Part shown: positions 2,163 to 23,362 of the stretch, piece after piece
How the letters are laid out: every line of letters starts with the position of its first letter
Position numbering within the stretch: the first letter of the stretch is position 1
DNA from: a virus
Length of the DNA stretch: 24,910 nucleotides
Direction: 5' to 3' (one strand)
Virus record (IMG/VR): IMGVR_UViG_3300032560_000109
Coordinates: 1-24,910 of that record
Position numbers and translations under genes: made by a program
The notes under the pieces: model-generated
Database searches by the model: none
Told to the model about the DNA's origin: nothing
What the model saw: the letters and a program-made list of their open reading frames with translations, nothing else

Positions 2163-4235
2163 GTGGCGGACCTGTCCCCCGTCCAGAAGGCCATGGTCAC
2201 GCTGGGCACGGACCGGCCACTGGCGCACCGCGTTCTCTTTGGGCACCGGCATCCGAACAAGTCCCCGGAGTTCCACCGGGAACTGATCCTCGACTGGCAC
2301 TCGTCGGACATGTCCGTGCTCGACATGGTCTTCCGTGGCGGCGCCAAGTCGACGATCGCCGAGGAAGCGATCACGATCAAAGGCTGCTACCGGGAGTTCC
2401 GCAACTGCCTCATCATCGGGGCGGACGAGGACATGGCGATCATGCGCCTGCGCGCCATCGCTCATGAGTTCGAGACCAACGAGCGGTTGATCCAGCTGTA
2501 CGGGAACCTGACCGGATCCACCTGGGCGCCCGACAGCGGCGAGATCGTGCTGTCCTCCGACGTGAAGATCCAGGCCCGCGGCAAGGGCCAGAAGCTGCGG
2601 GGGATCAAGCACCTCGATACCCGGCCGGACCTAGTCTACTTCGACGACATCGAGAGCTACGCCGACGTCGTGCGACCAGAGCTCCGCAAGAAGACCCAGG
2701 ACTGGTTCGACGGCGAAGTGCTGCCGGCCCTGGAGCCGGGGTTCATGGCCCGCATGTCGCAGACGCCGCTGCACCCCGAGGACCTGTGCTCGCACGTCAT
2801 GCGCGACCCGACCTGGAAGCGGCACAAGTTCCCGATCAAGTACCGGGACCTGGAGACCGGGGACTGGAAATCCTCGTGGCCGGAGCGGTTCCCGCTGACC
2901 GAGAAGGAGGCCTCCCACCTTCGCGGGCTGGCCTACAAGCGCGGCGAGAAGGCCAAGGTCCAGTCGATCGAGAACATCGAGACCGGCCTGTCCCGCAAGG
3001 GTCAGATCCACCTGTTCAACTGCGAATACATGTGCGAGGCCGAGAGCCCGGAGACCAAGGCGTTCAAGCGGGAGATGTTCTGGACCGAGCCCCAGGTCCG
3101 GTCCTGGCAGGCCGTCTACGCCATGTTCGATCCGGCGCGCACCGTCGGCATCAAGTCGGCCACGACGGGCATGGCGGTCTGGTCCTGGGTCAACGGCAAG
3201 CTGGTCGTGTGGGACGCCTGGGGCGAGCGCCTGATGCCCGACGAGATCATCCAGGCCCTGTTCAAGGTCCACCAGGACTACCACCCCGTCTGGATCGGCT
3301 TCGAGGAAGACGGCCTGAACCAGTGGGCCCTGCAGCCGATCCGCCAGGAGATGGTCAAGCGCGGAGAGGCGCTGCCGCTGCGCGCCCTCAAGGCGCCGAC
3401 GGGTAAGAACGACTTCATCCGCGGGCTGCAGCCGTTCTTTCATGGCCGGGAAGTGCGCTTCGCCAAGCCGATGCCCGAGCTTGAGCGCCAGCTGTTGGGC
3501 TTCCCCTCCGGCGAGATCGACGTTCCGAACGCCCTGGCCTACGCCCTGAAGATGCGGCCCGGCGCCCCGCTGTACGCCGACTTCGGGGCCAAGCACGCCA
3601 CGGACAGCCTGGAGCCGACTACCAGCCGGCCGATCGTCGTGTGCCTCAACGCGACCCGGAGCCTCGTCACCGCCGTGGCCATCCAGGTCTTCGACGGCTG
3701 CGCCCGGGTGTACCGGGACTACGTCCGGGAGGGAGAGCCGTCCGCGGTTCTGCCCGGCTTGGTCTCGGACCTGCAGGCCGACCTGGGGACGAACCTGCAG
3801 TTCACGGCCGGACCGATCCACTGGGACCGGCACAACAACGTCGGGCTGATCGCGGTGGCCGGCCGAATCCCCCGGCGCGTCAACCCAGGACTGCCGGCCG
3901 ACCAGGGCCGGGCCCGGATCGCGGCCATGCTGCAGCGGGACAAGAGCGGATTCCCGATGCTGATGGTGTCGGACAAGGCCACCTGGACGATGAACGCCTT
4001 CGCCGGGGGCTACAGCCGCGTCCTGCTGAAGCAGGGCCAGTTGGCCGACTACGCCGAGGAAGGCCCGTACCGGGTGCTGATGGAAGGCCTGGAGAGCTAC
4101 CTGGCCCTGACGGAACTCGGTTCGACAGAAGGGTACGGATCGTCTACCTTGAACGCGGAGACGGCCGAGGGCCGACCGTACCGATCCATGCTGGGCGGCG
4201 CCCGCACGGTGACGGCGACCAAAGACAACTGGTGA
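2163..4235 (+). CDS. terL: Terminase large subunit (TerL), 690 aa with C-terminal extension
   Basis: DNA-packaging motor with ATPase and nuclease domains. Residues 58-64 (RGGAKST) form the Walker A loop; 157-164 (LVYFDDIE) form Walker B with the catalytic Glu. The RNase H-like nuclease follows: FDPART with D323 as first metal ligand, GFEEDG with E381/E382 as second, and EIDVPN with D453 as third. Many TerL proteins would end near here; this one continues for over 200 residues. Residues about 488-600 again read strand-loop-strand (VVCLNATRS, AVAIQVFDG, ARVYRDYV), like the start of a second RNase H-like fold, but with N496 where the metal-binding Asp should be. It starts with GTG at 2163, one base after the previous stop, without a strong site, so coupling is likely. 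Confidence 0.93.
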   Translation: MADLSPVQKAMVTLGTDRPLAHRVLFGHRHPNKSPEFHRELILDWHSSDMSVLDMVFRGGAKSTIAEEAITIKGCYREFRNCLIIGADEDMAIMRLRAIAHEFETNERLIQLYGNLTGSTWAPDSGEIVLSSDVKIQARGKGQKLRGIKHLDTRPDLVYFDDIESYADVVRPELRKKTQDWFDGEVLPALEPGFMARMSQTPLHPEDLCSHVMRDPTWKRHKFPIKYRDLETGDWKSSWPERFPLTEKEASHLRGLAYKRGEKAKVQSIENIETGLSRKGQIHLFNCEYMCEAESPETKAFKREMFWTEPQVRSWQAVYAMFDPARTVGIKSATTGMAVWSWVNGKLVVWDAWGERLMPDEIIQALFKVHQDYHPVWIGFEEDGLNQWALQPIRQEMVKRGEALPLRALKAPTGKNDFIRGLQPFFHGREVRFAKPMPELERQLLGFPSGEIDVPNALAYALKMRPGAPLYADFGAKHATDSLEPTTSRPIVVCLNATRSLVTAVAIQVFDGCARVYRDYVREGEPSAVLPGLVSDLQADLGTNLQFTAGPIHWDRHNNVGLIAVAGRIPRRVNPGLPADQGRARIAAMLQRDKSGFPMLMVSDKATWTMNAFAGGYSRVLLKQGQLADYAEEGPYRVLMEGLESYLALTELGSTEGYGSSTLNAETAEGRPYRSMLGGARTVTATKDNW

Positions 4236-9733: not shown

Positions 9734-10430
9734 GGAAGGCAAGAACGTCGCGGTCGGTTTCTCCCTGGTCGTCGGTCTGTCCGACAACAGCCAGATCACC
9801 TTCCAATCGGGTTTTGAGGGTGACGAAACCGACGAAGCGGTCAACGCGCGTATCGACAGGATCGTCCGCATCGCGCACCGGCAGAAGGCCCTGAACCAGA
9901 TCCCCGATGTCGAGCGCGATCTCGCGCAGCAGCGGGCGACCCTGGCGCAGTTCCGGGAGGACCTGGAGCGGGTCAATCTTGACCATGACAAGCAGCAGGC
10001 CCAGCGGGCGCTGGAGATCGAGGAACGGGTTTCGGCGCGTGAGACGGAGCGCCGGAAGTTCGAGGCCGAGATCAACACCGCGATCCTGCAGATGCAGGAA
10101 GCCCGGCAGGCTCAGTGGAACGAAGGCGCCATGGAGCATCAACGCTCCGGTCGCGCCAGCAGCTACAAGCCCGCCGGCGTTCGTGCGACCAACATCGCCA
10201 AGATCGAAAGCGCGATCGAGAAAGCCAAGGAGAACCGTGAAGGGGCTCTGGAGGACTTCGATCGCGACTATGATGCTCGCATCCAGACGGCGCGAGACGA
10301 GATCGAACGGGCGGAAGCCGAGCGCGAGCAATCGCTTCGCAGTCTGAACATCTCCGTGAAGCACTATCAGGAAGCGATCTCGGCGAGCGAGGAAAAGCTC
10401 TCCAAGGCGCAGGCCCTGGTCGGGAGATGA
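9720..10430 (+). CDS. Coiled-coil protein (236 aa), probable virion component
   Basis: The ATG at 9720 (MPSTEEGKNVAVGFSLVVG) is chosen because GAGG lies seven bases upstream; the longer in-frame reading from 9567 is just a shadow of the previous gene. The first 35 residues make a small beta-like unit. Residues about 40-235 are almost entirely charged heptad-like helix (IPDVERDLAQQRATLAQFRE; ERVSARETERRKFEAEINTA; DEIERAEAEREQSLRSL), interrupted once by a basic Ser/Gly stretch near residue 145. It should form a long coiled coil. Position between capsid and adaptor genes suggests a head/neck or internal structural role, not proven. I do not recognise the family. Confidence 0.75.
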   Translation: MPSTEEGKNVAVGFSLVVGLSDNSQITFQSGFEGDETDEAVNARIDRIVRIAHRQKALNQIPDVERDLAQQRATLAQFREDLERVNLDHDKQQAQRALEIEERVSARETERRKFEAEINTAILQMQEARQAQWNEGAMEHQRSGRASSYKPAGVRATNIAKIESAIEKAKENREGALEDFDRDYDARIQTARDEIERAEAEREQSLRSLNISVKHYQEAISASEEKLSKAQALVGR

Positions 10431-10431
10431 C

Positions 10432-11304
10432 ATGGCTCTTACCGCGGCGCAGCTATGCACAAATGCGGCCCAGGTCGCAAAGTGCCCGGGCTATACGAGT
10501 CAGGCCGGACAAGGTCTGAACCAGATACTCGGTGATCTGTGCCGCGCGTGGGACTTCGAACTCGCCGCCAAGACGACGTACTTTAACTTCAACCCGGGGC
10601 TGTCGGCGCTGGTCGGTAACAGCATTTACGGCTCCGGGCCCTACCCGCTTCCCACGGACTTCCTCCGCATCAAGGACGACAAGTCCGCCTTCTGGACCCT
10701 TCCGGGAACCGGTGTGGTCTATCCGCTGATCCCTTGCGATCTGTCGGAATTCGACATGATGGTGCAGCAGGCCGGAACGCAGTCCTACCCGTACATCATC
10801 GCCACGGACATGAGCCTCGGGGATGAGACGACGCAAGGTGATAATACGCCGGTGTGCTATGTCTACGCGCCTCCGAGCGGCGCCTATCCGGTGACGATCC
10901 GGTATTTCGCTCAGATGCCTGACATCTACATGCCGGAAACTTCGGCGACGATCCCTTGGTTCCCACACCAGGGGTATCTGCACATGAAGCTGTCGGCCTA
11001 TCTGATGGGCTTCACCGATGACGTGCGCCAAGGTGAGTGGGACAAGGCGGCTAACGAGCTGCTACGTGAGTACCTGATGATGAAGGACAATCGTAGCAAC
11101 CGGGCTTCGACCGTGAAACTAGACCGCCGGCGGTTTGGCCGGGCGTACACGACGCTCCCGAACACGAAGACCGTCGGTTGGGTGGTAGCACTTGCGCTGT
11201 TGGGTGGTAGCGTGCTTAGCTCCTTGTACAACAAGGAGGTGCAGTATGCTCACGGACGAGCAGAGGCTTCGGCGCAACGAATATATGCGGGAGTGGAAGC
11301 GTAA
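10432..11304 (+). CDS. Head-tail adaptor (connector) protein with abnormal C-terminus
   Basis: A 290-residue protein one base after the previous gene. It resembles the podovirus adaptor that docks below the portal: helical start (ALTAAQLCTNAAQVAKCPGY), a beta-rich core with LPTDFLRIKDD, then a helical C-terminal part (HMKLSAYLMGF; ANELLREYLMMKD). The family's usual end, as I recall it, is a LDRRRFG...TLPNTKTVGW motif; here that is residues 229-250. Instead of stopping at W250 the frame runs 40 residues more through the 22-bp repeat, the SD hairpin and the first 59 bases of the HNH gene. The extension (VVALALLGGSVLSSLY...) is hydrophobic then polar and looks like an accident of the endonuclease insertion. 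Confidence 0.78.
   Translation: MALTAAQLCTNAAQVAKCPGYTSQAGQGLNQILGDLCRAWDFELAAKTTYFNFNPGLSALVGNSIYGSGPYPLPTDFLRIKDDKSAFWTLPGTGVVYPLIPCDLSEFDMMVQQAGTQSYPYIIATDMSLGDETTQGDNTPVCYVYAPPSGAYPVTIRYFAQMPDIYMPETSATIPWFPHQGYLHMKLSAYLMGFTDDVRQGEWDKAANELLREYLMMKDNRSNRASTVKLDRRRFGRAYTTLPNTKTVGWVVALALLGGSVLSSLYNKEVQYAHGRAEASAQRIYAGVEA
11178..11211 (+). repeat. Direct repeat TTGGGTGGTAGC at the adaptor/HNH junction
   Basis: TTGGGTGGTAGC occurs at 11178-11189 and again at 11200-11211, a 22-base period, exactly where the adaptor's conserved end meets the HNH insertion. Two turns of helix separate the copies. It may be a junction scar or a binding site for a regulator. Confidence 0.8.
11220..11238 (+). promoter_or_regulatory. 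Hairpin sequestering the HNH gene ribosome site
   Basis: CTCCTTGT (11220-11227) pairs perfectly with ACAAGGAG (11231-11238) around ACA. The ribosome site AAGGAGG (11233-11239) of the HNH gene at 11246 lies almost wholly in the 3' arm. On a read-through transcript the gene should be poorly translated unless the stem is opened, for example by ribosomes finishing the overlapping adaptor frame. Confidence 0.7.
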
Positions 11305-11776
11305 GAACCGCGAGAAGGTCAACGCGATAAATCGCTCGGTCAAGGCCAAGAACCCTGAAAAATACCGGGGGATCAATCGGCTATCCATGGCCAAGGCGCG
11401 GTCCGAAGACCCCGATCGGTTCCGGGATTTGGCCGACCGGTACCGAGACAAGAACGCACCGAAGTACCTATTAGACCACGCCCGATGGCGGGCTAAAAAG
11501 CTGGGGGTCGCATTCTCATTAACCGAGCAGGACGTAAAAATTCCGGAATTTTGCCCGGTGCTCGGTATCAGGCTAGAGTGGAGCCGAGGTCGTCGAGCTT
11601 CAGCAAACAGTAGCTCGCCTTCGTTAGACCGGGTCGAAGGTGCTAAAGGGTATGTGCAAGGGAACGTGGTCGTGATCTCTAACAGGGCTAACTTCCTCCG
11701 GAACAATGCGTCTGCAGAAGAACTTCGCCGTGTTGCGGAGTACGCGGGCAAAGTGGAAGGCGGATGGAGGCCCTGA
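11246..11776 (+). CDS. HNH-type homing endonuclease, free-standing
   Basis: A 176-residue protein from ATG 11246, six bases after AAGGAGG. The N-terminal 75 residues are very basic and helical with repeated 'R-x-K-N-P-E-K/D' units, probably DNA-binding. The C-terminal part matches a common phage HNH homing-endonuclease type: DHARWRAKKLGVAFSL, IPEFCPVLGIRLEW, SPSLDRVEGAKGYVQGN (126-140), VVVISNRANFLR, then AEELRR. It lies between the adaptor and nozzle genes, overlapping the adaptor frame by 59 bases and the next gene by a TGATG junction. Its A+T content is visibly higher than its neighbours, consistent with invasion. Such enzymes cut an allele lacking the gene and so spread; the target is probably the adaptor/nozzle junction (inferred). 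Confidence 0.88.
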   Translation: MLTDEQRLRRNEYMREWKRKNREKVNAINRSVKAKNPEKYRGINRLSMAKARSEDPDRFRDLADRYRDKNAPKYLLDHARWRAKKLGVAFSLTEQDVKIPEFCPVLGIRLEWSRGRRASANSSSPSLDRVEGAKGYVQGNVVVISNRANFLRNNASAEELRRVAEYAGKVEGGWRP

Positions 11777-13599
11777 TGCCTATCCGAGGCTCCAAGAACC
11801 TGGTCTTCAAACCCCGCGGACTCTCCGACGCGGTCGACGGGACCAACGTGTTCCCCGGAGCTCTGAAGATAGCGACCAACTTGATCCCGTCCAGCGACAC
11901 CCAAGATACCTGGGTCCCCCGGCCGGCCGCCGTCGAACTCAGCAGCTACTCCGGGTTCACCTCGCCCGGGTTCGTGTCCGCCTCCCTGGTGGTGGGGAAC
12001 ATCGAATACGGCATGATCGCCAGCGGGCTCCATGCCGGCAAGGATCAGCCGTACGCCTACAACCTGCTGACGGGGACCTTCCTCACGGTCAACGGGATCC
12101 AGTCGACGAACGTCCCTACCAGCCCGGTTACGACGGGATCCTGGACGCCGCCGATCATGTCCGTGGTCGGGAACCGTGTGATCGTCTGCCACCCTGGCTT
12201 CCCCGGCGGCACGGTCAAGTTCGGTTGGTTCGATCTATCGAGCTTCAGTTACACCGGCAGCATCGTCACCAACGGCACCACGACGATCACCAGCGCGACA
12301 AACCTCCTGACCAGCGGCGTCCAGCCGGGCCAGACGATCACCAAGGCCGACATCCCGGCCGGCGCGACCATCGTCTCGATCGCGGTGAACGGCCTGTCCG
12401 CGGTCATCTCCGCAGCCGCCACGGGGAGTACGACGTCTTCCGCCACCATCGCCGGCGGGACCTCCACCACGCCCCTGTGGGGCGCAGGGGACACCAACAT
12501 CAACAACTTGCCGTCGATCCCCGTCAGCGTCGTCCAGTTCAACGGCCGGGCGTACTACGCCTGCGGGATCAACGGCGTGCCCTACACCGACTCTCTGCTT
12601 CCGTGCAATCGGACCAACGCCAACCAGGCGCTGACCTTCGCCAATGGTTTGGCGGTGACGGCTCTGGGCCCGCTTCTATTGGCCTCTCCGGTCACCGGTG
12701 GCATCGTCCAGGCGGTCATGGCGTTCCAGGGCGCTTCCGCGATCCAGCAGATCACTGGTGACCAAGCCACGTCGAACCTGGCGGTCAATGCGATGAACGT
12801 AGCGACAGGGACCTTGGCGCCGCTGTCGATCACGCCGACAGACTTCGGCTTGGCGTTCATTTCTCCGGACGGTCTTCGTGTGATCCAGTTCTCCGGTCAG
12901 GTGTCCGACCCCATCGGGTTCCACGGTGAAGGCGTGACCATACCCTTCATCTACGCCGTCCAGCCGACTCGCGTGTGCGCTGCAGCGACGGCTGACGTTT
13001 TGCGGATCAGCACGCAAAACGGGAATGCGGTGAACAGCCCCAATCAGGAATATTGGTTCGATATAGCCAAGAAAGTGTGGAGCGGACCGCACACTTTCCC
13101 GGCCAGTCTGATCCAACCTTGGGGAGACACTTTCGTCGTCCACCCTGTAGGTATCCCCGGAACGATCTTCCAGAGCGACGCCAACATTTCCGCTGCGTCC
13201 AGCTTCACGGAAAACGGGACGCCGCTCCAGTGGCAGCGCATGTCCTGCCTGATGCCCGACAATCAAATGGGCTGCATGAACGCCTTGGTGCAGTCCACCT
13301 TGTCCGCATCGCTGCCCACCGGGTACAACCTGACGGTTTCCGCTTTCGACGAGACGGGAGCTACGCTAGGCACTGCTGCTATTATCATCCCCGGAACGGC
13401 GACCACTTGGGACGCTTTCAACTGGGGTGGTGCATCCTGGTTGGGAGGCGTCGGCGCTTTCACGCAGCACCGAGTTCCGTGGATGGCGCCAATCGTGTAC
13501 AAACAGGTGTTTGAATCTCTGCGAGGGCTTTCTGCTTTCGGAGTGGAGATCGGGAACAGCTACTTCAATTTCCAGGAACTGGGCTACATGCTCCAGTAG
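11776..13599 (+). CDS. Tail nozzle / tail hub-like protein
   Basis: A 607-residue, beta-rich protein starting MPIRGSKNLVFKPRGLSDAV at ATG 11776, behind GGAGG and overlapping the HNH stop. In podoviruses the gene after the adaptor usually encodes the nozzle that closes the tail tube (P22 gp10 or T7 gp12 position). The sequence has repeated strand-turn units compatible with a propeller or barrel, an N-terminal 'G-x-x-x-x-x-P-R-P' feature (TWVPRPAAVEL), and late motifs (YWFDIAKKVWSGPHTFPAS; WQRMSCLMPDNQMG). Residues about 156-230 form a Thr/Ser/Ala-rich insertion (ITKADIPAGATIVSIAVNG) like the small Ig-like modules common in phage tails. Identity is by position and overall pattern. Confidence 0.7.
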   Translation: MPIRGSKNLVFKPRGLSDAVDGTNVFPGALKIATNLIPSSDTQDTWVPRPAAVELSSYSGFTSPGFVSASLVVGNIEYGMIASGLHAGKDQPYAYNLLTGTFLTVNGIQSTNVPTSPVTTGSWTPPIMSVVGNRVIVCHPGFPGGTVKFGWFDLSSFSYTGSIVTNGTTTITSATNLLTSGVQPGQTITKADIPAGATIVSIAVNGLSAVISAAATGSTTSSATIAGGTSTTPLWGAGDTNINNLPSIPVSVVQFNGRAYYACGINGVPYTDSLLPCNRTNANQALTFANGLAVTALGPLLLASPVTGGIVQAVMAFQGASAIQQITGDQATSNLAVNAMNVATGTLAPLSITPTDFGLAFISPDGLRVIQFSGQVSDPIGFHGEGVTIPFIYAVQPTRVCAAATADVLRISTQNGNAVNSPNQEYWFDIAKKVWSGPHTFPASLIQPWGDTFVVHPVGIPGTIFQSDANISAASSFTENGTPLQWQRMSCLMPDNQMGCMNALVQSTLSASLPTGYNLTVSAFDETGATLGTAAIIIPGTATTWDAFNWGGASWLGGVGAFTQHRVPWMAPIVYKQVFESLRGLSAFGVEIGNSYFNFQELGYMLQ

Positions 13600-13614
13600 G
13601 CGCGGAGGTCTTCA

Positions 13615-14352
13615 GTGCGGATCAGAAAATTAACGGCCCTACTGGCTTTCATGGCCGGCCTGGGGCTAGCCTCTTCGGCTCCGGCGCAGATCGTCGGGGT
13701 TCTTCCCTACACCCTGACCAACGGCACGACAGCCGACGCTAATCAGGTTCAAGGGAATCTGCAGTACATCGTCAACCAGGTGAACGCTAACGTCGCCACG
13801 GCGGTCACCGCGGCGATCAGCGCGGTCCTCCCGGTGGGGACCATCGTTGAATGGAGTGGATCGATCGTGTCCATTCCCACCGGGTGGCACATCTGCGACG
13901 GAACGCACGGTACGCCGAACCTGGAAGATTCGTTCGTCGTCGGCGCCGGTAATTCTTACGCGGTGGGTTCGACCGGAGGTGCGACGTCGAACACGCCGAC
14001 GATCACGGTGGCGGGTCATACGCTGACCTTAGCGGAGATCCCCAGCCACAACCACGGTGTGACTGATCCCGGGCACGGACACGGTGTGACCGATCCGGGA
14101 CACAGCCATACCTACCAACTAGCGCAGACGGGTCCGACTGCCGTTATCGGAGGGGGCAGCAGCCCTTTGGGCTCCACGACGGGATCGAGCACCGGAACGT
14201 CGACTACCGGAATCTCCATCCAAAGCTCGACCACAGGCATCACTGTTCAAAACAACGGGGGCGGGGGTTCCCACACGCACACGGCCAGTTCATCGGCCGT
14301 GCCGACGTTGCCGCCCTACTACGCCCTGGCTTACATCATGAAGACATCCTAG
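13615..14352 (+). CDS. Tail-collar-domain fibre protein with signal peptide
   Basis: A 245-residue protein with GTG start at 13615 behind GGAGG. Residues 1-24 (MRIRKLTALLAFMAGLGLAS, then SAPA) form a textbook Sec signal peptide: basic start, hydrophobic core, and A-P-A before Q25. Residues about 72-120 match the phage tail-collar domain (LPVGTIVEWSGSIVSIPTGW, HICDGTHGTPNLEDSFVVGA). A histidine-rich DPGHGHG/DPGHSH stretch (about residues 142-163) follows, with SHTH near the end, like the HxH metal sites of fibre tips; the C-terminal PPYYALAYIMKTS is the usual end of collar proteins. It should be a trimeric receptor-binding or fibre protein. A signal peptide on such a protein is unexpected. Confidence 0.85.
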   Translation: MRIRKLTALLAFMAGLGLASSAPAQIVGVLPYTLTNGTTADANQVQGNLQYIVNQVNANVATAVTAAISAVLPVGTIVEWSGSIVSIPTGWHICDGTHGTPNLEDSFVVGAGNSYAVGSTGGATSNTPTITVAGHTLTLAEIPSHNHGVTDPGHGHGVTDPGHSHTYQLAQTGPTAVIGGGSSPLGSTTGSSTGTSTTGISIQSSTTGITVQNNGGGGSHTHTASSSAVPTLPPYYALAYIMKTS

Positions 14353-14358
14353 GCGTTT

Positions 14359-14387
14359 TTGACGCGAGCCGACCAAGGCTGTAGTCT
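14359..14387 (+). promoter_or_regulatory. Candidate promoter before the second signal-peptide protein
   Basis: TTGACG (14359-14364) is followed 17 bases later by TAGTCT (14382-14387). The gap of 61 bases here is one of the longer ones in the operon. The surrounding GGCTGTAGTCTCG resembles the CTACAGTCTCG in the gap before the scaffold gene. The -10 is weak; the case rests on recurrence and placement. Confidence 0.3.
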
Positions 14388-14413
14388 CGCGGAACAATTC
14401 TCTGGAGAAGGCC

Positions 14414-14902
14414 ATGCGCCAACGAATTCTAGCGGCACTGCTTCTGCTTTGCGCGCTATCCGTCGCCCCGGCGGTATCGTGGGCGCAGACCGGAACTCCG
14501 GCACAGACCGTGGCGACGTGCGGCACCCCGAACAATGCTCCCGTGGTCGGCGGTTATTACAGCCTGACCATGAACCCCGCGTCCCAGCTTTGCATCGCGG
14601 GAAATATTACCGCTAATCCGAGCGTGATCGACGCGACGTCGACGGATGCCTCCGGCACCGTGACCGCAGGAGGCACCTACCAATTGGTGATCGCGTCCAA
14701 TGCCTCTCGAAAAGGCTGCTTGATCCAAAACCCGGTGTCCGCCAGCGAAACGCTCAACGTCCGGATCGGCGCTACCACCGTCTACTCCCTGGCCGCCGGA
14801 GCAGCGTTGTCCTGCTCGGCTGGCGGCGGTGTGATCGTCTCGGATAACGTCTACGTCACCGGCACGACGACCGGACATGCATTTTCGGCGAACTATCAAT
14901 GA
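14414..14902 (+). CDS. Secreted beta-rich protein with signal peptide (162 aa)
   Basis: The ATG at 14414 follows GGAG. Residues 1-24 ([20 protein letters not shown], then VSWA) form a Sec signal peptide with S-W-A before Q25; there is no lipobox, so no lipoprotein. The mature part is Thr/Ala/Ser/Val-rich with four Cys residues. It has a beta-sandwich-like rhythm ([51 protein letters not shown]). The unit '[19 protein letters not shown]' is one I associate with small phage and prophage structural or adhesin modules. It overlaps the next gene by ATGA. Function unknown; an exported or virion-surface adhesin is the likeliest reading. Confidence 0.75.
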
Positions 14903-16182
14903 AGAAATTCCTAGTCACCTTCGCGGCGCTCCTGGCTTTTCCGGCGTTCGCCCAGACCATCACGCCCTCCGGCACGGTGACGAGTGTCGCGGTAACGGCC
15001 CCGGCGTTTTTCACCGTGACGGGCAATCCTATCACGACCAGCGGGACCGTCGCGCTTTCGATCACGTCACCGGCGGCGGCTAATTTTCTCGCCTCGCCGA
15101 CCGGCTCAAGCGGCCAACCGACATTCCGCGCCATCGTTAGTGGGGACTTGCCGGTCATTAATCTGAACACCTCGGCGGCGGGCGGCGTTCAGGGGAATTT
15201 GCCGGTCGGCAATTTGGCGAGCGGAACCAATGCTAGCGCGTCAACATTTTGGCGCGGCGATGGTTCCTGGCAAACGCCTGCGGGCGGCGGCAATGTTTAC
15301 AACGTCGCGACACCCACGAATTTGCAAATCGCCCAATGGACCGGCGCGACGACAATTCAGGGCCTCGCCACGACCGGGACCGGAAATGCGGTCCTCGCCA
15401 CATCGCCGACGCTGACCACGCCTAATTTGGGCACGCCTTCCGCCGCTGTCCTGACCAGCGCGACGGGCCTTCCTCTGTCGACGGGCGTAACCGGGACGCT
15501 TCCGCTCGCCAACGGCGGGACCGGAATTACGACAGCGTCGCCGATGGTCACTCAGCAAATTTTCCTGACGGGTTCGGGTACCTATACGAAGCCCGCCGGA
15601 GTAATTTGGATCAGGGTCCGCATGGTCGGCGGCGGCGGCGGCGGCGGCGGTGGCGGGACAGGCGCGGCAGGAAACGGTGTGACGGGCGGCGTATCGACGT
15701 TTGGTTCTGCTTTTCTGACGGCTAATGGCGGCCTTTTTGGACAGGCAAATGCCGCGCCGGGTGGCGGCGGCGGGACCGCTAGCATAACGGCTGGCGCTAC
15801 CGGATTGGCCCTAACGGGCGGTGGCGGTGGCGCTAATGTTTCCCAAGGCATCATAAACGACGTCGTTTCGGGCGGTATGGGCGGGAATTCGGCCTTGGGT
15901 GGCGGGGCTCCCAGCGTCGTTTACAGTATGGCGGGCACGGCGGGTGCTTCTAATACCGGCGGCGGCGGTGCCGGCGGCGGTTCTGGAAACAACGTCGGCG
16001 CTTATTCCGGTTCGGGCGGCGGCGCTGGCGGATTTGTTGACGCCATTATTACGGCTCCCTCCGCGACCTATGCCTATAGCGTCGGCGCGGGAGGGACGGC
16101 GGGTACGGCGGGCACTGGCGGCTATGCTGGCGGCGCTGGCGGCTCCGGCGTGATCATTGTCGAAGAACATTATTGGTATTGA
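14899..16182 (+). CDS. Glycine-rich tail fibre/adhesin with signal peptide (427 aa)
   Basis: It starts at ATG 14899 in an ATGA overlap. Residues 1-18 ([18 protein letters not shown]) are a signal peptide with A-F-A before Q19. Residues about 20-215 carry phage-fibre repeat modules ([71 protein letters not shown]). Residues about 222-427 form a glycine-rich adhesin domain ([20 protein letters not shown], a run of ten Gly, many later GGGG and GGAGG blocks, ending IIVEEHYWY). Such domains occur at phage fibre tips, where polyglycine stretches can pack as type II helices. Codon choice becomes more A+T-rich (AAT, TTG, ATT) from about 15060, suggesting a recently acquired host-range module. Confidence 0.85.
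15628..15657 (+). repeat. In-frame GGC trinucleotide run
   Basis: Seven consecutive GGC codons (15628-15648), then GGT GGC GGG, encode ten Gly at the start of the adhesin domain. Pure trinucleotide runs can gain or lose units by slippage without a frameshift. Confidence 0.85.
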
Positions 16183-16191
16183 GGCGCGATC

Positions 16192-16407
16192 ATGAACCCC
16201 GCAATCCTGAGGGTCATAAAGTCGCTGATTTCGGCGGCTGGAATTACGCCCGAAGTCATCGCCGCCTATATTGACGAATTCCGCAAAAAGGCCGATGCAT
16301 ATGTCTCCGCTCAATTGGAACAAAGCGAGCGGCTTGCTCGGATCGAAGCCCATTTAGGCATAGGCCAAAATCCGCCCCTTCAAATTGAGGACAAAACGAA
16401 TGTCTGA
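16192..16407 (+). CDS. Small helical protein (71 aa), function unknown
   Basis: A 71-residue protein starting MNPAILRVIKSLISAAGITP, seven bases after GAGG. It predicts an N-terminal amphipathic helix, then a charged helix (VIAAYIDEFRKKADAYVSAQ) running into LEQSERLARIEAHLGIG. Lys/Glu content and lack of a membrane segment suggest a soluble helical bundle or coiled coil. Base use matches the preceding fibre gene (A+T-richer), so the two may have arrived together. It could be a fibre chaperone, since small helical proteins directly after adhesin genes often are, but nothing specific shows this. Confidence 0.65.
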   Translation: MNPAILRVIKSLISAAGITPEVIAAYIDEFRKKADAYVSAQLEQSERLARIEAHLGIGQNPPLQIEDKTNV

Positions 16408-16498
16408 CACTCTCGGGGCTGTCATCACGATTCTCAATTGCCACGCGTCCACGGCCTTCAACGGCACCATCACCTACAGCTTCCTCGTCATCAACTGA
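16400..16498 (+). CDS. Possible very small hydrophobic peptide (32 aa)
   Basis: A 32-residue frame, MSDTLGAVITILNCHASTAF then NGTITYSFLVIN, opens at ATG 16400, overlapping the previous gene by eight bases; GAGG lies about ten bases upstream. It is too short for a confident call. The peptide is hydrophobic with no charged residue after Asp3. It could be real or a chance frame; it fills a gap otherwise about 116 bases long. Confidence 0.4.
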   Translation: MSDTLGAVITILNCHASTAFNGTITYSFLVIN

Positions 16499-16523
16499 GT
16501 CAGTTTTAAAGGCGGGGCGGGGC

Positions 16524-16784
16524 GTGTTGAACGAGAATGAGTGGAACGTGAAACAGTGGGCCGCGGATCACGACGCTAAGGATAACTTCCGGTTCGCCAT
16601 TGTGTGGCGAGTGTTCGCCGTGGGCGGCGCGGCGGTCCTAGCGGTCCTGGGTTGGTCCTTGAAGTCGCAGTACGACACGGCGTATGCTACGCAGCAGTCG
16701 GTACAGCAGATGGGTTCGGCGATCGTGCAGGAATTGCATCGCCAGACTGAACACTTCGACACGGAGAACCAACCCAATGGCTGA
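16524..16784 (+). CDS. Single-span membrane protein, candidate holin or spanin
   Basis: An 86-residue protein with GTG start at 16524. A polar N-terminus (MLNENEWNVKQWAADHDAKD) precedes one hydrophobic segment at about residues 24-46 (FAIVWRVFAVGGAAVLAVLG, then WSL). A polar, Gln-rich C-terminal stretch of about 40 residues follows. It lies two genes before the lysozyme, which has no signal peptide and therefore needs a membrane-permeabilising partner. That makes a single-span holin or an inner-membrane spanin plausible; there is not enough periplasmic coiled coil to choose a spanin. It overlaps the next small gene by eight bases. Confidence 0.65.
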   Translation: MLNENEWNVKQWAADHDAKDNFRFAIVWRVFAVGGAAVLAVLGWSLKSQYDTAYATQQSVQQMGSAIVQELHRQTEHFDTENQPNG

Positions 16785-16929
16785 GAAGCACGCGCTTAAC
16801 GGGACCAAAACCCCGCCCGCCACGCAGGACTCGTCTCGCGTTTTGCCGAAGGGTCCTTCGGTCAATTCCGAAACGACCCGGTCCTCCGCGGCGCCCACGC
16901 CCAAGACGCTCGGCCCGCGCGAAGCCTGA
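16777..16929 (+). CDS. Small disordered protein (50 aa) in the lysis region
   Basis: A 50-residue frame from ATG 16777 (MAEKHALNGTKTPPATQDSS), ten bases after GGAG, ending three bases before the lysozyme gene. The sequence is Pro/Ser/Thr/Lys-rich with no hydrophobic core, so probably disordered. The overlap with the previous gene and the tight spacing to the next support translation. No family recognised; a lysis accessory role is only suggested by place. Confidence 0.5.
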   Translation: MAEKHALNGTKTPPATQDSSRVLPKGPSVNSETTRSSAAPTPKTLGPREA

Positions 16930-16932
16930 TCC

Positions 16933-17394
16933 ATGCGTCCGGTTCCTCCCCAAGCCCTCGCTCTGGTTAAGTCCAGCGAGGGCTTTCGCGCGTCTTGCTA
17001 TTCCGATACGGGCGGTCTGCCGACCATCGGCTACGGGCACAAGTTGCGTCCGGGCGATCCGCTCCTGGTTTCGACGATCTCTGAGGCCGCCGCCGAGGAG
17101 TTGGCCGAGCAGGACCTGGCGGCGGCCGGCGCTCAACTGACCTCCGTTCTGGGCGACGCGCAGATCACGGAACTCTCGGACGGACAGTGGTCCGCGCTCC
17201 TGGACTTCACCTTCAACGAAGGCATCGGCCAGTTCGAGGCGTCGACCCTGTGCGCCAAGATCAAGACCGGACAACTGGCATCCGCGTCGATCGAATTTAA
17301 CCGGTGGGTCTACGGCAAGGTCAACGGCGTCGAGACGGTTCTGTCCGACTTGGTCGCGCGCCGAGCCTCCGAAACGGCGTTGTGGAATTCATGA
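16933..17394 (+). CDS. Endolysin, GH24 lysozyme (T4/P22 type)
   Basis: A 153-residue muramidase that cleaves the glycan chain of peptidoglycan at lysis. The catalytic triad of the family is in place: E16 (KSSEGFR), D25 (CYSDTGG) and T31 (LPTIGYGH), with the family's 9- and 15-residue spacings from the Glu. The ALLDFTFNEGIGQFEASTL segment and the RW...G...GL(V)xRR-like end (EFNRWVYGKVNGVETVLSDL, then VARRASE) complete the fold; length is normal. There is no signal peptide or signal-anchor, so it depends on a holin, possibly the gene at 16524. It overlaps the next gene by ATGA. Confidence 0.93.
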   Translation: MRPVPPQALALVKSSEGFRASCYSDTGGLPTIGYGHKLRPGDPLLVSTISEAAAEELAEQDLAAAGAQLTSVLGDAQITELSDGQWSALLDFTFNEGIGQFEASTLCAKIKTGQLASASIEFNRWVYGKVNGVETVLSDLVARRASETALWNS

Positions 17395-17900
17395 TCCAGC
17401 CGATTGGGTTTATCGACGCAGCGGCCTTCACCGCATCTTACGTCGTCAAGTACAAGCAGCACATGCGAGATGGCACGCTGAAGCTCCGTAGCCGCGACCC
17501 GGCCGACGTGCTCCTGGCGGTCGCTGACGAGCCTATTCTGGGGGAATGGAAAGCCGCCGCCGCGCTGCTGAGCCGTTACCGCAGTCATGCACGAAACGCC
17601 CTTAAGGACAGCAAGATCGAACTGGGCGAGGCCTGGATCGAGATGCTCCCCGGAGGGCATGGGACACCCTGGCGCCAGTACGAAGACGACTACGCGCAGG
17701 CGCACATCAGGACCCGGCTGTGCCTGATCCCCGCGCCGGATGCTTTTACCTACTCGGGCCACTTCCGAGAAATCCTGGCGGTCGGCGTGGTCAACGTCGT
17801 CGAACACCGCGTGCTGCATAGCGACACGAACTTCAGCACTTTCCCCCGGGTGCACCTGGTGGTGGACGTGGAGCGGCCGGATGCCCACGAAGTCGAGTAG
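17391..17900 (+). CDS. AspH-like 2-oxoglutarate oxygenase
   Basis: A 169-residue protein from ATG 17391 in an ATGA overlap with the lysozyme. The C-terminal part matches the aspartyl/asparaginyl beta-hydroxylase family: H143-S-D-T-N147, ten residues on R153, then VHLVVDV, the usual iron ligand, spacing and 2-oxoglutarate-binding Arg. The strand RTRLCLIPAP (107-116) corresponds to the family's 'R-x-H-L-x-L' strand. The first iron ligand is less clear: His is expected near residues 95-100, where PWRQYEDD stands, with H90 and H105 the nearest. It may be displaced or lost. Its partner is the overlapping GNAT gene. Substrate unknown; phage AspH-like genes are usually unassigned. Confidence 0.72.
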   Translation: MIQPIGFIDAAAFTASYVVKYKQHMRDGTLKLRSRDPADVLLAVADEPILGEWKAAAALLSRYRSHARNALKDSKIELGEAWIEMLPGGHGTPWRQYEDDYAQAHIRTRLCLIPAPDAFTYSGHFREILAVGVVNVVEHRVLHSDTNFSTFPRVHLVVDVERPDAHEVE

Positions 17901-18375
17901 GCTGTCGTTCGACTGGTGCTCCATCGCGCAGGCTCTGACCGAAGGCCTGGCCGATCTCGCCGAAGCCAATTACGCCGAAGTCGAAACCTACGTCGGCCAC
18001 TTTCCCCTGGATATCAATTGGGGCGCCTACCAGATGGCCGAGCGCCGCGGGGAACTCCGGTCGATCGCGGCTCGCGCCGGCGGAAATCTGGTGGGGTACG
18101 CTTCGTACTCGATCCAACCTCTCAGCCAGAACCAGACGGTGCTTTGCGCCGTCAATCGCGTCGTCTACATGGCGCCCAGGCACAGAGGCTGGGGCTCTCT
18201 GGAGCTCCTGGACGACAGCGAACGAAGGCTCAAGGACCTCGGTGTCCAGATGGTGATCTATGTCGTCAAGGAGCCCAATTCGACAGATGGTCGCCGCTCC
18301 GCTAATCTGGCTTCTCTCCTGGTTCGTCGGGGCTGCGATCCCTATGAGCGGCATTTTTCGAAGGTCTTGAAATAG
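17881..18375 (+). CDS. GNAT-family N-acetyltransferase
   Basis: A 164-residue protein from ATG 17881, overlapping the oxygenase gene by 20 bases; GGAG lies upstream. The longer in-frame reading from 17740 is a shadow. The acetyl-CoA-binding motif of GNAT enzymes is visible: strand NRVVYMAPRHRGWG with R100-x-x-G103-x-G105, followed by helix SLELLDDSERRLKDLG. It is preceded by strands NLVGYASYSIQPL and followed by VQMVIYVVKEPN. The protein begins with a helix-rich part (AQALTEGLADLAEANYAEVE). Tight coupling to the oxygenase suggests one pathway or complex modifying a phage or host protein, cell-wall component or small molecule; the target cannot be told from sequence. Confidence 0.8.
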   Translation: MPTKSSRLSFDWCSIAQALTEGLADLAEANYAEVETYVGHFPLDINWGAYQMAERRGELRSIAARAGGNLVGYASYSIQPLSQNQTVLCAVNRVVYMAPRHRGWGSLELLDDSERRLKDLGVQMVIYVVKEPNSTDGRRSANLASLLVRRGCDPYERHFSKVLK

Positions 18376-19397: not shown

Positions 19398-20609
19398 ATG
19401 GATTGGGGCTCGTTCGCAGGAGGGGTAGGCCAAGGGCTCGAACAGGGCCAGCAGATGCGTGCGCGCCAGATCGCCATGCAGGACCAACTGCGCCATCAAG
19501 CCGCGCATCAGGCCGCATCGAACGTGCTGCAGTCCCTGGTCGCTGCGGGTCCGGACGCCGGAGCCACGTCGCCGACCGCCGTCCCGCCGCAACCGACACC
19601 CGCCGTTCCTCCGGGCGGTCCGCCTGGCGCGCAGCCTATGCCACCGGCGGGTCCCGCGCCGATGGCCGGCCCTGCCCCTGGCGGACCGCCGCAGGCCGTT
19701 CCGATGCCCGGCGCGCAGCTCATGCCCCAGGCCGCCGCCCCGCCGCCTGCACCGGCTCCCCTGCCGGCCGGACCCCCGCAAGGCGGCCCCGGCGGCGCAG
19801 CGCCTCCCGGCCCGGCAGGACCGGCCGTGTCGGGACCGGCGGCCGGCTCTACCGGGGACGTGTGGGTGGACAGCAAGAAGACGCTCCAGAGCGCGGCGCG
19901 CTGGGTCGCGCAAGCCAACCCCGGCCGCAAGTGGAAGCCGGGTGAACTGCTGGACGCCGTCAACGAGGTGATCGAGACCATGAACGGTCTGAACCCGATG
20001 GAGAAGATCGCAGCCCAGGCTCAGATCGCCGGGGCGAAGGCGCAGCATGACTGGTACACCGCCGAGACGCAGCGCCTGTCGGAGCAAGAACGGGAGACGA
20101 AGGACAAGACGGCGCATTCGGACCGGCTGACGGCGCTCGACGCTGCGGCGAAGCGCGTCAAGATGCAGTCCGACACCAAACTCAAGGCCGTCGCCGCGCA
20201 GGACCTCATGCGGATGCAGGTCGCCGAACTGGCGCAGGCCGGTCAGGATGAGCGCCAGGGGAAACTCCTGGATTTCCGCCAGCAGGCTCTCGACGCCGGT
20301 CTGGACGAAAAGACCTGGCAGACCCTGGTCCAGGCCGGCCTCAAGGAGCAAGGCATGTCGGACGCCTTCGCCGGCCGCGTGTTCTCGGCGCAGGCCCGGA
20401 GCGCGGGCCAAGCGACGGCGCCTCCGACTCGTCAGCGTGTGGGCGCCGCTCCGCCCCCGCCGAAGCGTGGCGCCGCCCCTACCGCCGGACCGAAGGTGGA
20501 TCCGGTCAAGGAGAAGGCCGAGGCGCTGTCGCACATCCGGGCCGGAGCCGATCCCGCCCAGGTGCGCGACATCTACAAGCAGAGGACCGGACAACCGGCT
20601 GACTTCTGA
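19398..20609 (+). CDS. Probable internal virion protein with Pro/Gly/Ala-rich linker (403 aa)
   Basis: It starts at ATG 19398 with AGGA upstream and ends in a TGATG overlap with the next gene. The N-terminus (MDWGSFAGGVGQGLEQGQQM) predicts a helix of the kind found in phage ejection proteins. Residues about 50-150 are almost entirely Pro, Gly and Ala. A helical domain follows (DVWVDSKKTLQSAARWVAQA, then charged coiled-coil-like helices to about residue 315), then another Pro/Ala linker and a short C-terminal helix. The middle protein of a three-gene cassette with large products before and after suggests a T7 gp14-16-like ejectosome role (inference from order, not similarity). Confidence 0.65.
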   Translation: MDWGSFAGGVGQGLEQGQQMRARQIAMQDQLRHQAAHQAASNVLQSLVAAGPDAGATSPTAVPPQPTPAVPPGGPPGAQPMPPAGPAPMAGPAPGGPPQAVPMPGAQLMPQAAAPPPAPAPLPAGPPQGGPGGAAPPGPAGPAVSGPAAGSTGDVWVDSKKTLQSAARWVAQANPGRKWKPGELLDAVNEVIETMNGLNPMEKIAAQAQIAGAKAQHDWYTAETQRLSEQERETKDKTAHSDRLTALDAAAKRVKMQSDTKLKAVAAQDLMRMQVAELAQAGQDERQGKLLDFRQQALDAGLDEKTWQTLVQAGLKEQGMSDAFAGRVFSAQARSAGQATAPPTRQRVGAAPPPPKRGAAPTAGPKVDPVKEKAEALSHIRAGADPAQVRDIYKQRTGQPADF

Positions 20610-23362
20610 TGGCGGACGATCCGTACGCCGCGGCCTACGTCAAGACGCCCTCCCCTGCCAAGCCTGCTGCAACGGACCCCTACGCAGCCGCCTACACCCA
20701 GGCTCCGGCCGCACCGGCTGCGAGCGATCCATACGCAGCCGCCTACACCCAGGCTCCGGCCGCACCGGCTGCGAGCGATCCATACGCCTCGGCGTACGCC
20801 AAGCCTCCCGCTGCAGCATCCCCGCCGGCCGCGCAAGCGGCGCCCACGCGCCCGGCCAAGCCCGGCGAAGACCTTCCCGTGGTCGGGCATCTGGTCCGGA
20901 ACCTGAACGACGTGGCGGCCGAGCGCACCGCGGCGCTGAAGCACGACGTCACGACCAAGCCGCAGCACGGGATGCCCCTGCGGGTCGCCAAGACCGCCGT
21001 CGACGTCGCGGGCTACGCCCTGGGCCCGATCGATGCCGCGGCACGCACGGTGGTCGGCGAACCCGTGGCGGTCGGCGCCGCAGCGATCGACAAGGCGATA
21101 GGCAAGGGCACGTCTCCCGAGCTCCAGGAGCGCGTCAAGAAGAACATCGGAGACGTAGCCTCCATGGCCTTTCCGCTCGATGCGGTCGGCAAGGCCACGG
21201 GCGTCGCGGAGAAAGTCCCTGCGGCGTTCAAGGTTCTGGAGAAGATCGCGTCCCCCGCCACCGTTAACGACGAGGCCAAGGCCGCGGCGAACATGCACCG
21301 CCATATCCTAGGGAAGCGCGGCATCGAAGCGGACAAGGCGGCCTACAATCTGGGCAAGCACCAGCGCATCGTCGGCAACGCCTCCCCAGAAGACCAGCGC
21401 CGGATCATCCAGTACGTGGAGAACCGGTCCAAGGGCGGCGTGTCGCTGCCCGAACGGTTCAAGCCGGCCGCCGACGCCATCCGGACCGTGGCCGAGGGAT
21501 ACCGCAAGCAGATCGAGTACGTGCTGGGCAAGGACGGCCCGAGCTTCGTGCAGGACTACTACGCCCGGATGTGGAAGCAGAAGCCCGACGAAGTGGTCCG
21601 GGCGATGTCCAAGCAGGGATCTGGAAAGAGCCTGAAGGCCCGCTCTCTGCCGACCTATGAGGACGGGCTGAAGGCCGGTCTCACGCCCGTCCACGCCAAT
21701 CCGCTAGACGCCATGACCGCCTACAGCGAGAACATGGGCCGATTCCTGGCGACGCACGAAATCCTTGACGGGATGAAGTCCGAGAAGGCCATCGGCGCCA
21801 AGTTCTTCGCCCCAGGCAAGCAGCCCGAGGGATGGGTTCCGTTGAACGGGGTTAAGACCCGCACGCCCGAGCGCCTGATCGTGCAGAAGGGGAAGGGTAC
21901 GATCGGCCGCCAGGGCGAGCAGGTCATGTACGCCCCGGAAGGCGCGGCGCGCGTCTACAACAACTACATCTCCAAGGGGCTTGAGAGCAGCGACACGGCC
22001 GGCGGGATTTACCGCGGCGCGCGGGCGGCGGCGAACGGCCTGGTGCAACTGAAGCTCGGGCTCAGCGCCTTCCACGGCGCGGTCATGGGCCAGGAGGGCA
22101 TCATCTCCGAGATGGCGCGCGGGCTGAAGCAGGTCTCCCGCGGCGACGCCGGCGGGCTGAAGACCATGGCCGCATCGCCGGCCGCCCCGATCTCGACCTA
22201 CCGCCGGGGGTCGAAGATGGCCGACCAGATCCTGGGGAAGGCCGCTCCATCCGAGTTCGACGCCAAGCTGAACAAGATCTACGAGAAGACCGGCGCCCGC
22301 CTGGGCATGGATAAGATCTACGCCACCCGCGACAAAGCGTCGCTGTTCGCGTCGACGGTCCGCGGGACTCTTCTGCGGGACCTCGGGGACGCGCTGAAGG
22401 CGACCTACACCGGATCGGCCGGATCCCGAGCCAAGGGCGTCATCGACTTGGCCGGCAATCTGATCCAGTCCACCGCCGCCCCGCTGTTCGAGCACTACAT
22501 CCCGAACGTCAAGCGCGGCGCGTGGGCGCAGCAGATGTCGGACTTCCTGAAGGCCAATCCGAACGCCTCGGAGGCCGAGCAGGTCGCCTACGGCCAGAAG
22601 CTCCAGGACACGATCGACAACCGGTTCGGCGAACTCGTCGTCAACAACAACTTCTGGAACAAGAGCGCCTACCAAGTCGCGCAGCTGCTGCTGCTGTCCC
22701 CGTCGTGGAACATCGGCACGGCGCGCGAGATCGGCGGCGGCATCATCGAGATCCCCAAGAGCCTGAAGGGTGTCGTCGAAGGCAAAGGCGTCACGGACAA
22801 GACCGCCTACGTCGCGGCCCTGGTGGGCACTACGATGCTGGAGAACGCCGTCGCCACGAAGCTGCACACCGGCCAGGACCCGGAGGGCGCCGACTTCTTC
22901 GCCTATCGCACCGGAGGGACGGATCCGGCCACGGGCAAGCCCGAGCGCGCCATGCTGCCGGGCTACATGAAGGACGTCCTGGCCTGGTCGCTTGAGGGGC
23001 CGGGCAAGGAGGCGGCGAACAAGCTGAACCCCGGCCTGCAAGCGGCGGCGTCCCTGCTGACGAACAAGGACTACAAGAACCAGCCGATCCGCGACATCAA
23101 CGCGCCGGCCGAGACCCAGGCCGGGCAGGTCGCGGGCTACGCCGCCGAGCAGGCGTCGCCGATCGCCTTCGGCGAGAGCAGCAAGCCGAAGAAGGGCTCC
23201 AAGCTGTCCGGGCCGGAGCGGGCCCTGGCGATCCGGCCGGCTGCGCGGTACATCACGGACCCGCAGGGCGTGAAGGCCATGGAGGGGGAGGTCGCCCGCC
23301 GTGGATGGAATGCCAAGACGCGAACGGAGCAGCGCATGAAAGCCCGAGAGGCCGACCAGTGA
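20609..23362 (+). CDS. Large internal virion protein with LPD38-type domain (917 aa)
   Basis: The largest gene, from ATG 20609. Residues 1-70 hold four copies of a DPYA(A/S)AY motif with Pro/Ala linkers. A long, mostly helical body follows. Residues about 600-830 match what I know as the large polyvalent protein domain LPD38: NNNFWNKSAYQVAQLLLLSP, then WNIGTAREIGGGIIE, a hydrophobic helix (VAALVGTTMLENAV), DFFAYRTGGTDPATGKPERA, MLPGYMKDVLAWS, and LLTNKDYKN. LPD38 proteins occur as giant virion proteins of podoviruses, probably ejected with DNA. No lytic transglycosylase or protease motif stands out. The C-terminus is basic. It overlaps the HNH gene by GTGA, so its original downstream neighbour was probably the gene at 23789. 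Confidence 0.82.
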   Translation: MADDPYAAAYVKTPSPAKPAATDPYAAAYTQAPAAPAASDPYAAAYTQAPAAPAASDPYASAYAKPPAAASPPAAQAAPTRPAKPGEDLPVVGHLVRNLNDVAAERTAALKHDVTTKPQHGMPLRVAKTAVDVAGYALGPIDAAARTVVGEPVAVGAAAIDKAIGKGTSPELQERVKKNIGDVASMAFPLDAVGKATGVAEKVPAAFKVLEKIASPATVNDEAKAAANMHRHILGKRGIEADKAAYNLGKHQRIVGNASPEDQRRIIQYVENRSKGGVSLPERFKPAADAIRTVAEGYRKQIEYVLGKDGPSFVQDYYARMWKQKPDEVVRAMSKQGSGKSLKARSLPTYEDGLKAGLTPVHANPLDAMTAYSENMGRFLATHEILDGMKSEKAIGAKFFAPGKQPEGWVPLNGVKTRTPERLIVQKGKGTIGRQGEQVMYAPEGAARVYNNYISKGLESSDTAGGIYRGARAAANGLVQLKLGLSAFHGAVMGQEGIISEMARGLKQVSRGDAGGLKTMAASPAAPISTYRRGSKMADQILGKAAPSEFDAKLNKIYEKTGARLGMDKIYATRDKASLFASTVRGTLLRDLGDALKATYTGSAGSRAKGVIDLAGNLIQSTAAPLFEHYIPNVKRGAWAQQMSDFLKANPNASEAEQVAYGQKLQDTIDNRFGELVVNNNFWNKSAYQVAQLLLLSPSWNIGTAREIGGGIIEIPKSLKGVVEGKGVTDKTAYVAALVGTTMLENAVATKLHTGQDPEGADFFAYRTGGTDPATGKPERAMLPGYMKDVLAWSLEGPGKEAANKLNPGLQAAASLLTNKDYKNQPIRDINAPAETQAGQVAGYAAEQASPIAFGESSKPKKGSKLSGPERALAIRPAARYITDPQGVKAMEGEVARRGWNAKTRTEQRMKAREADQ
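20675..20776 (+). repeat. Two near-perfect 51-bp tandem repeats plus a partial third
   Basis: Units 20675-20725 and 20726-20776 encode DPYAAAYTQAPAAPAAS twice, and a partial third copy starts at 20777. They differ at only a few bases near the DPY codons. In-frame length makes copy-number change harmless to the reading frame. Confidence 0.9.

Follow-up and report, generated by a model that had tools for sequence, protein, structure and literature searches.

Why should a tailed phage encode, in the middle of its virion genes, three consecutive fibre- or adhesin-like proteins that each appear to begin with a Sec signal peptide (SP), when the assembly of tailed-phage fibres is, in the textbook view, purely cytoplasmic? 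The window analysed here is the whole of a 24,910-base virus record (IMG/VR record IMGVR_UViG_3300032560_000109) that carries terminase, portal, capsid, SU10-type adaptor and endolysin genes, all in the same direction. The fibre-gene slot is marked by the gene for a conserved tail protein (11764..13599, + strand; family members ~540–610 aa) and is followed on the same strand by protein 1 (13615..14352, 245 aa), a putatively exported fibre with an N-terminal anchor and a collar-type receptor tip, protein 2 (14414..14902, 162 aa), a small, apparently exported protein with Cys residues C36, C60, C102 and C134 in its mature part, and protein 3 (14899..16182, 427 aa), a Gly-rich adhesin-like fibre, also predicted to be exported, that is devoid of Cys. 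Downstream of these lies the gene for the endolysin, a phage lysozyme without an SP (16933..17394, +).

The SP calls rest on a home-made scorer (a weight matrix from 24 known Escherichia coli SPs combined with terms for the h-region and charge) together with conservation. Proteins 1, 2 and 3 score 12.4, 10.8 and 16.8, all other likely genes of the window score 1.5 or less, and the 24 reference SPs score mostly 18–27 with a minimum of 11.9; the coordinates and the three successive SPs given by the initial annotation were borne out. The predicted precursors open MRIRKLTALLAFMAGLGLASSAPA (where ^ is the predicted cut), and each has a positive n-region, a hydrophobic core and small residues at −3/−1 by scorer and alignment. 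For protein 1 the predicted SP is 24 aa long (13615..13686, APA^Q; scorer and alignment), for protein 2 also 24 aa (14414..14485, SWA^Q; scorer and family) and for protein 3 18 aa (14899..14952, AFA^Q; scorer and coupled ORFs of relatives), so that a small-residue site is predicted directly before Gln in all three, as first noted. The starts of all three ORFs look credible from their context: a GGAGG ribosome-binding site (13604..13608, +) lies 6 nt before the GTG start of protein 1, GGAG precedes the start at 14414, and the start of protein 3 overlaps the stop of protein 2 (ATGA, 14899..14902, +), which probably reflects translational coupling. Shuffling the residues of the N-terminus matched the score in 34, 111 and 14 of 5000 trials for proteins 1, 2 and 3, and no fibre was among the 4 of 159 genes that the scorer picked out in a control on 22 loci of SP-less relatives. 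The residue at +1 is Gln in all three, and the site is not a lipobox, with its Cys at +1, which sets the proteins apart from receptor-blocking lipoproteins of the T5 Llp type. The shared cleavage before Gln had been thought striking, but it carries little weight and was dropped as a special signal because Gln stands at +1 in 2/7 to 3/11 host SP calls (a small sample) and the predicted cut sites of relatives include A^G, A^T, A^S and A^A.

Protein 1 matches PHROG tail-fibre families strongly (phrog_8469, E 2e-33), and its earlier description as a collar-domain protein holds as far as the fibre assignment goes, but the Pfam Collar match (PF07484; score 15.9 vs a gathering cut-off of 24, E 0.013) falls below threshold. 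Directly behind the predicted SP lies an anchor domain, QIVGVLPYTLTNGTTADANQVQGNLQYIVNQVNAN (13687..13791, +), delimited by alignment, profile and model, which belongs to a constant region of ~35 N-terminal residues with the consensus IIGxLPxTLxNGTTADAxQVMADFNxIVNQVNAN; residues 26–59 of protein 1 match the extreme N-terminus of SP-less fibres of other phages (M[AP]IIGTLPNxIxNGQAVDAxPVMADFNFIVNQVNAN). In the AlphaFold model the anchor is a short extended segment followed by a predicted helix of ~30 residues (pLDDT ~70), most of the remaining model is below 50, and mean pLDDT is 43 for protein 1 and 38 for protein 2; at this low confidence no barrel was seen, nor did Pfam give a match pointing to a Lom-like outer-membrane beta-barrel. 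A search of IMG/VR with an anchor profile found 228 relatives, and among the best 80 of these some open with the anchor and others have an SP immediately before it, the gene in both forms lying directly 3′ of a relative of the 11764–13599 gene. Behind this one anchor the tips vary (collar type, Gly-rich phrog_863, other tail-fibre tip families, ‘attachment protein’), and the shaft that follows it resembles annotated tail fibres of isolated phages. Receptor-binding proteins with an N-terminal anchor are usually built in this way. Encoded within the virion gene block and combining a constant N-terminus with a C-terminal tip that varies, protein 1 is best read as a modular receptor-binding (fibre) protein of a podovirus lineage, and the anchor would then bind the tail; proteins 2 and 3 lack the anchor. 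A PDB profile search with the anchor returned no credible relative, and the same was true for the 11764..13599 protein, which also had no match in Pfam or PHROG. Searches of the 50,697 phage records of INPHARED found no relatives for protein 2, the 11764 family or two proteins from related loci, and a search of 289 genomes of Reyranella’s class likewise gave no member of the 11764 family; judged by the 11764 family, no isolated INPHARED phage belongs to this lineage.

Further loci were collected starting from the 11764 family, and the slot fibre was classified in 87 phages, in all of which a homologue of the 11764 protein lies directly upstream of the anchor fibre. An SP stands directly before the anchor in 41 of the 87, and in the other 46 the anchor starts at Met. 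On a tree of the upstream 11764-family protein, which has no outgroup root, one half contains 41 SP-bearing and 7 SP-less rows and the other is SP-less in 39/39, and seven changes of SP state are needed vs 29 when the labels are shuffled. Among 13 aligned SP-bearing sequences identity is 28% in the SP columns and 63% in the anchor columns while the Ala at the cleavage site is invariant; it is the character of an SP that is kept, rather than its sequence. In the syntenic loci L310 and L076/L319, the nearest relatives of the window, the slot fibre is SP-less and begins MSIVSALPF or MTIITALPF, so even closely related phages differ in SP state. The same fibre N-terminal part also occurs with and without an SP in the sister pairs L367/L377 (63% identity over 136 aa), L349/L385 (68% over 152 aa) and L369/L361 (65% over 266 aa), and the SP ends where the SP-less homologues begin.

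Many of the related anchors contain a pair of cysteines, the first just past the predicted cut and the second ~20–30 residues on (C..PFxLxNGTTADATQVMANYNxLxxC). Anchors behind an SP (n = 41) have two Cys in 26 cases, none in 15 and a single one in no case, and SP-less anchors (n = 46) have none in 45, one in a single case (L311) and never the pair (Fisher p = 6e-12, kinship ignored). In phylogenetically independent pairs the two traits agree in 4–6 of 7 and disagree in none (sign test p 0.03–0.125), and in both L367/L377 and L349/L385 the SP-less sister lacks both cysteines despite 63–68% identity over 136–152 residues. Counted over the whole slot fibre, Cys content shows no significant difference between SP-bearing and SP-less forms (Mann–Whitney p 0.31); the difference is confined to the anchor pair. 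The anchor of the window’s own protein 1 has no cysteines and the pairing rule comes from its relatives, where it fits a disulfide that forms only once the protein has been exported. Homologues without the N-terminal segment, named in the initial annotation as evidence against export, do occur for protein 1, the nearest relatives included, but as the segment is lost exactly at the domain boundary, and together with the cysteines where the pair exists, its absence accords with export and does not count against it.

Nine other contigs encode relatives of protein 2, an SP is found in all 10 family members, and the C102/C134 pair of protein 2 is conserved in the aligned homologues. In L076, L077, L079 and L081 the protein 2 homologue is followed by an ATGA-overlapping, SP-bearing ORF whose mature part begins QTI like that of protein 3; comparison of homologues finds SPs for all three proteins (41/87 slot fibres, 10/10 of the protein 2 family and the coupled ORF of four relatives). 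Many fibres share the shaft motifs of protein 3, and the majority of these are SP-less (about 8 of ~57 examined have an SP). Consecutive SP-bearing genes are present in L076, L077, L079, L081 and L084, and runs of 2–5 occur in several relatives, so that three in a row is not peculiar to this phage. Two longer relatives, G001 (46.6 kb) and G002 (41.3 kb), were read nearly end to end and have an SP on every recognisable fibre, which leaves no recognised candidate there for an SP-less virion fibre; G001 has, besides its slot fibre, a series of consecutive SP-bearing or SP-like genes that lies between portal and scaffold and includes one for a laminin-G/lectin-type protein with a Tat-like N-terminus. 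By comparison, L076/G005 and L081/G008 keep one SP-less fibre beside those predicted to be exported, and the lambda-like relative L090 has an SP-less gpJ followed by a 1296-aa fibre that is apparently exported.

These observations give good support to the export of the fibre-like proteins of this clade. This part of the original interpretation stands, on the conservation of the SP across a deep clade, its drift with features kept and its co-occurrence with the cysteines; the Gln cut contributes little to it. What the exported proteins are for is a harder matter, and our preferred explanation, to which we would give an even chance, is that proteins 1–3 are fibre-type proteins made as Sec precursors and that the fibres join the virions at lysis, proteins 2 and 3 being best explained as co-translated exported partners of protein 1. 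They would be expressed late, alongside the other virion genes, as their position suggests, and translocated by Sec; a cut after A-x-A would expose the same anchor with which the SP-less relatives start. Trimerisation would take place in the periplasm and, in many relatives, so would disulfide formation, to judge from the pairing rule. Once the cell had been opened by holin and endolysin, the fibres in the periplasm would meet finished heads and tails and attach to them via the anchor, perhaps having occupied host-surface receptors beforehand. Such late addition of fibres is chemically reasonable, since tailless P22 particles accept tailspikes in vitro. The fuller scheme, an assembly in two compartments in which cytoplasmic heads and tails are joined at or after lysis by Sec-exported, periplasm-oxidised fibres that are possibly also shared between particles and possibly block receptors on the dying cell, is put forward tentatively, as somewhat less than an even bet, and we know of no tailed phage that assembles Sec-exported fibres.

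It is also possible, though we lean against it, that the proteins are exported but never reach virions and serve as secreted fibre-derived adhesins that coat the infected cell or block its surface or receptors, to prevent superinfection or the loss of progeny on debris, or as accessory polysaccharide-modifying factors. The evidence for export (the SP and the cysteine pair) is common to both explanations. What makes a secreted coat, receptor block or decoy a serious rival is mainly the SP-less fibre or gpJ kept in some phages: the single SP-less fibre of L076/G005 and L081/G008 and the SP-less gpJ of L090 fit accessory secretion, and the 1296-aa fibre of L090 lies near the position of lambda Lom (PMC12309495). 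The GDSL-type hydrolase predicted to be exported in the same run in L076, the laminin-G/lectin-type protein of G001 and the chromosomal secreted proteins that share the anchor motif and cysteine pair point the same way. Against this, all fibre candidates of G001 and G002 have an SP and no virion fibre is otherwise recognised in them, and the slot switches between SP-bearing and SP-less forms in close sisters whose N-terminal parts are homologous and whose anchor is conserved. Given an anchor that is conserved whether or not an SP precedes it, and two phages that seemingly lack an unexported fibre, virion-bound exported fibres are favoured over decoys. We consider it improbable that the hydrophobic N-terminus stays uncleaved and anchors the protein in a membrane or the virion, for example by keeping the fibre on the tail or at the inner membrane up to lysis. 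In L338, L349, L363 and L384 the hydrophobic segment is long and the cleavage site less typical, which would suit such a role, but the Ala at the cut is invariant in the 13 aligned SPs and the SP ends at the start of the SP-less homologues; the cysteine pair, moreover, suggests that the domain itself crosses the membrane, although a signal anchor would do likewise. Chance look-alikes or wrong start codons are very improbable, and a chance origin of the three SPs is unlikely given the related loci, for against the one GTG start, the home-made scorer and the 0.3–2% of shuffles that attain the score stand good ribosome-binding sites or coupling, three consecutive cases, conservation across dozens of phages and the correlation with cysteines.

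The preferred reading, of exported fibres that join virions, can be set beside known systems. Podovirus modular fibres (T7 gp17- and P22 gp9-like in role; phrog_8469, phrog_863) share with these proteins the place in the virion block, the constant N-terminal anchor, the exchangeable receptor tips and the fibre-shaft motifs, but here a Sec SP precedes the anchor and many relatives have the anchor cysteine pair. T5 Llp and phi80 Cor are phage envelope proteins that are exported. Lambda Lom is an exported outer-membrane protein encoded among the tail genes (PMC12309495). Lom and the three proteins are alike in being SP-bearing products of phage genes among tail-fibre genes, but Lom forms a beta-barrel in the outer membrane and Llp is a lipoprotein, whereas the putatively exported proteins here are themselves of fibre or receptor-binding type. 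Exported phage proteins encoded among tail genes are, then, already known; in the open-access library searched we found no report of SPs on tail fibres or structural proteins, of conserved Sec SPs on fibres, or of either main reading, whether virion fibres made as Sec precursors or a secreted coat, receptor blocker or decoy. Repeated change of SP state between close relatives amounts to a set of natural experiments on the compartments in which fibres can be assembled, and the clade bears on what a phage might gain from exporting them (disulfides, receptor blocking or protection of the cytoplasm) and on how SP-bearing ‘hypothetical’ genes in virion blocks are treated in annotation. The prediction is that the mature fibre starts at Q25 and that the fibre of relatives carries a disulfide.

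Apparently secreted proteins with an SP, the cysteine pair and the anchor motif (LPYxLTNGTTADAxQVMANF) are also encoded on alphaproteobacterial MAG chromosomes (Reyranella, Hyphomicrobiales, other alphaproteobacterial and Caulobacteraceae MAGs; L246, L250, L251, L255, L262). These features are shared with the phage fibres, but several of the chromosomal loci adjoin very large ORFs with YD-repeat-like sequence and not virion genes. The anchor motif and cysteine pair were seen in alphaproteobacterial MAGs at L293 (4147–7091), L246, L250, L255 and L263, with three in tandem in Reyranella.

A second fibre family, with the N-terminus TTEINTNxxDNxxGxITPAxLR, is also SP-bearing (L367 2775–5000, L377 2300–4429 and L264 16580–17971), in L377 although the slot fibre is SP-less. 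L264 (contig IMGVR_UViG_3300035114_000005) has SP-bearing or SP-like genes for proteins of 273–864 aa between its portal and scaffold genes (10067–17971), among them one for a laminin-G/lectin-type protein with the Tat-like N-terminus ‘SRRLFLVRAALAAPALI’. At 4108–5295 of L076, within the run of putatively exported genes, is an SP-bearing GDSL/SGNH-type hydrolase (Lipase_GDSL_2, E 1e-6, below cut-off), a candidate exported polysaccharide deacylase. In the window itself, a 917-aa late protein (20609–23362, +) with tandem ~16-residue repeats at its N-terminus (DPYAAAYTQAPAAPAAS) had no family match and is probably an ejection protein, and an endonuclease-VII/HNH-type ORF (11192–11776, +; phrog_3322, E 2e-31), which overlaps the adaptor gene (10432–11304) at one end and the first bases of the 11764 tail protein gene at the other, is probably a homing-type insertion.
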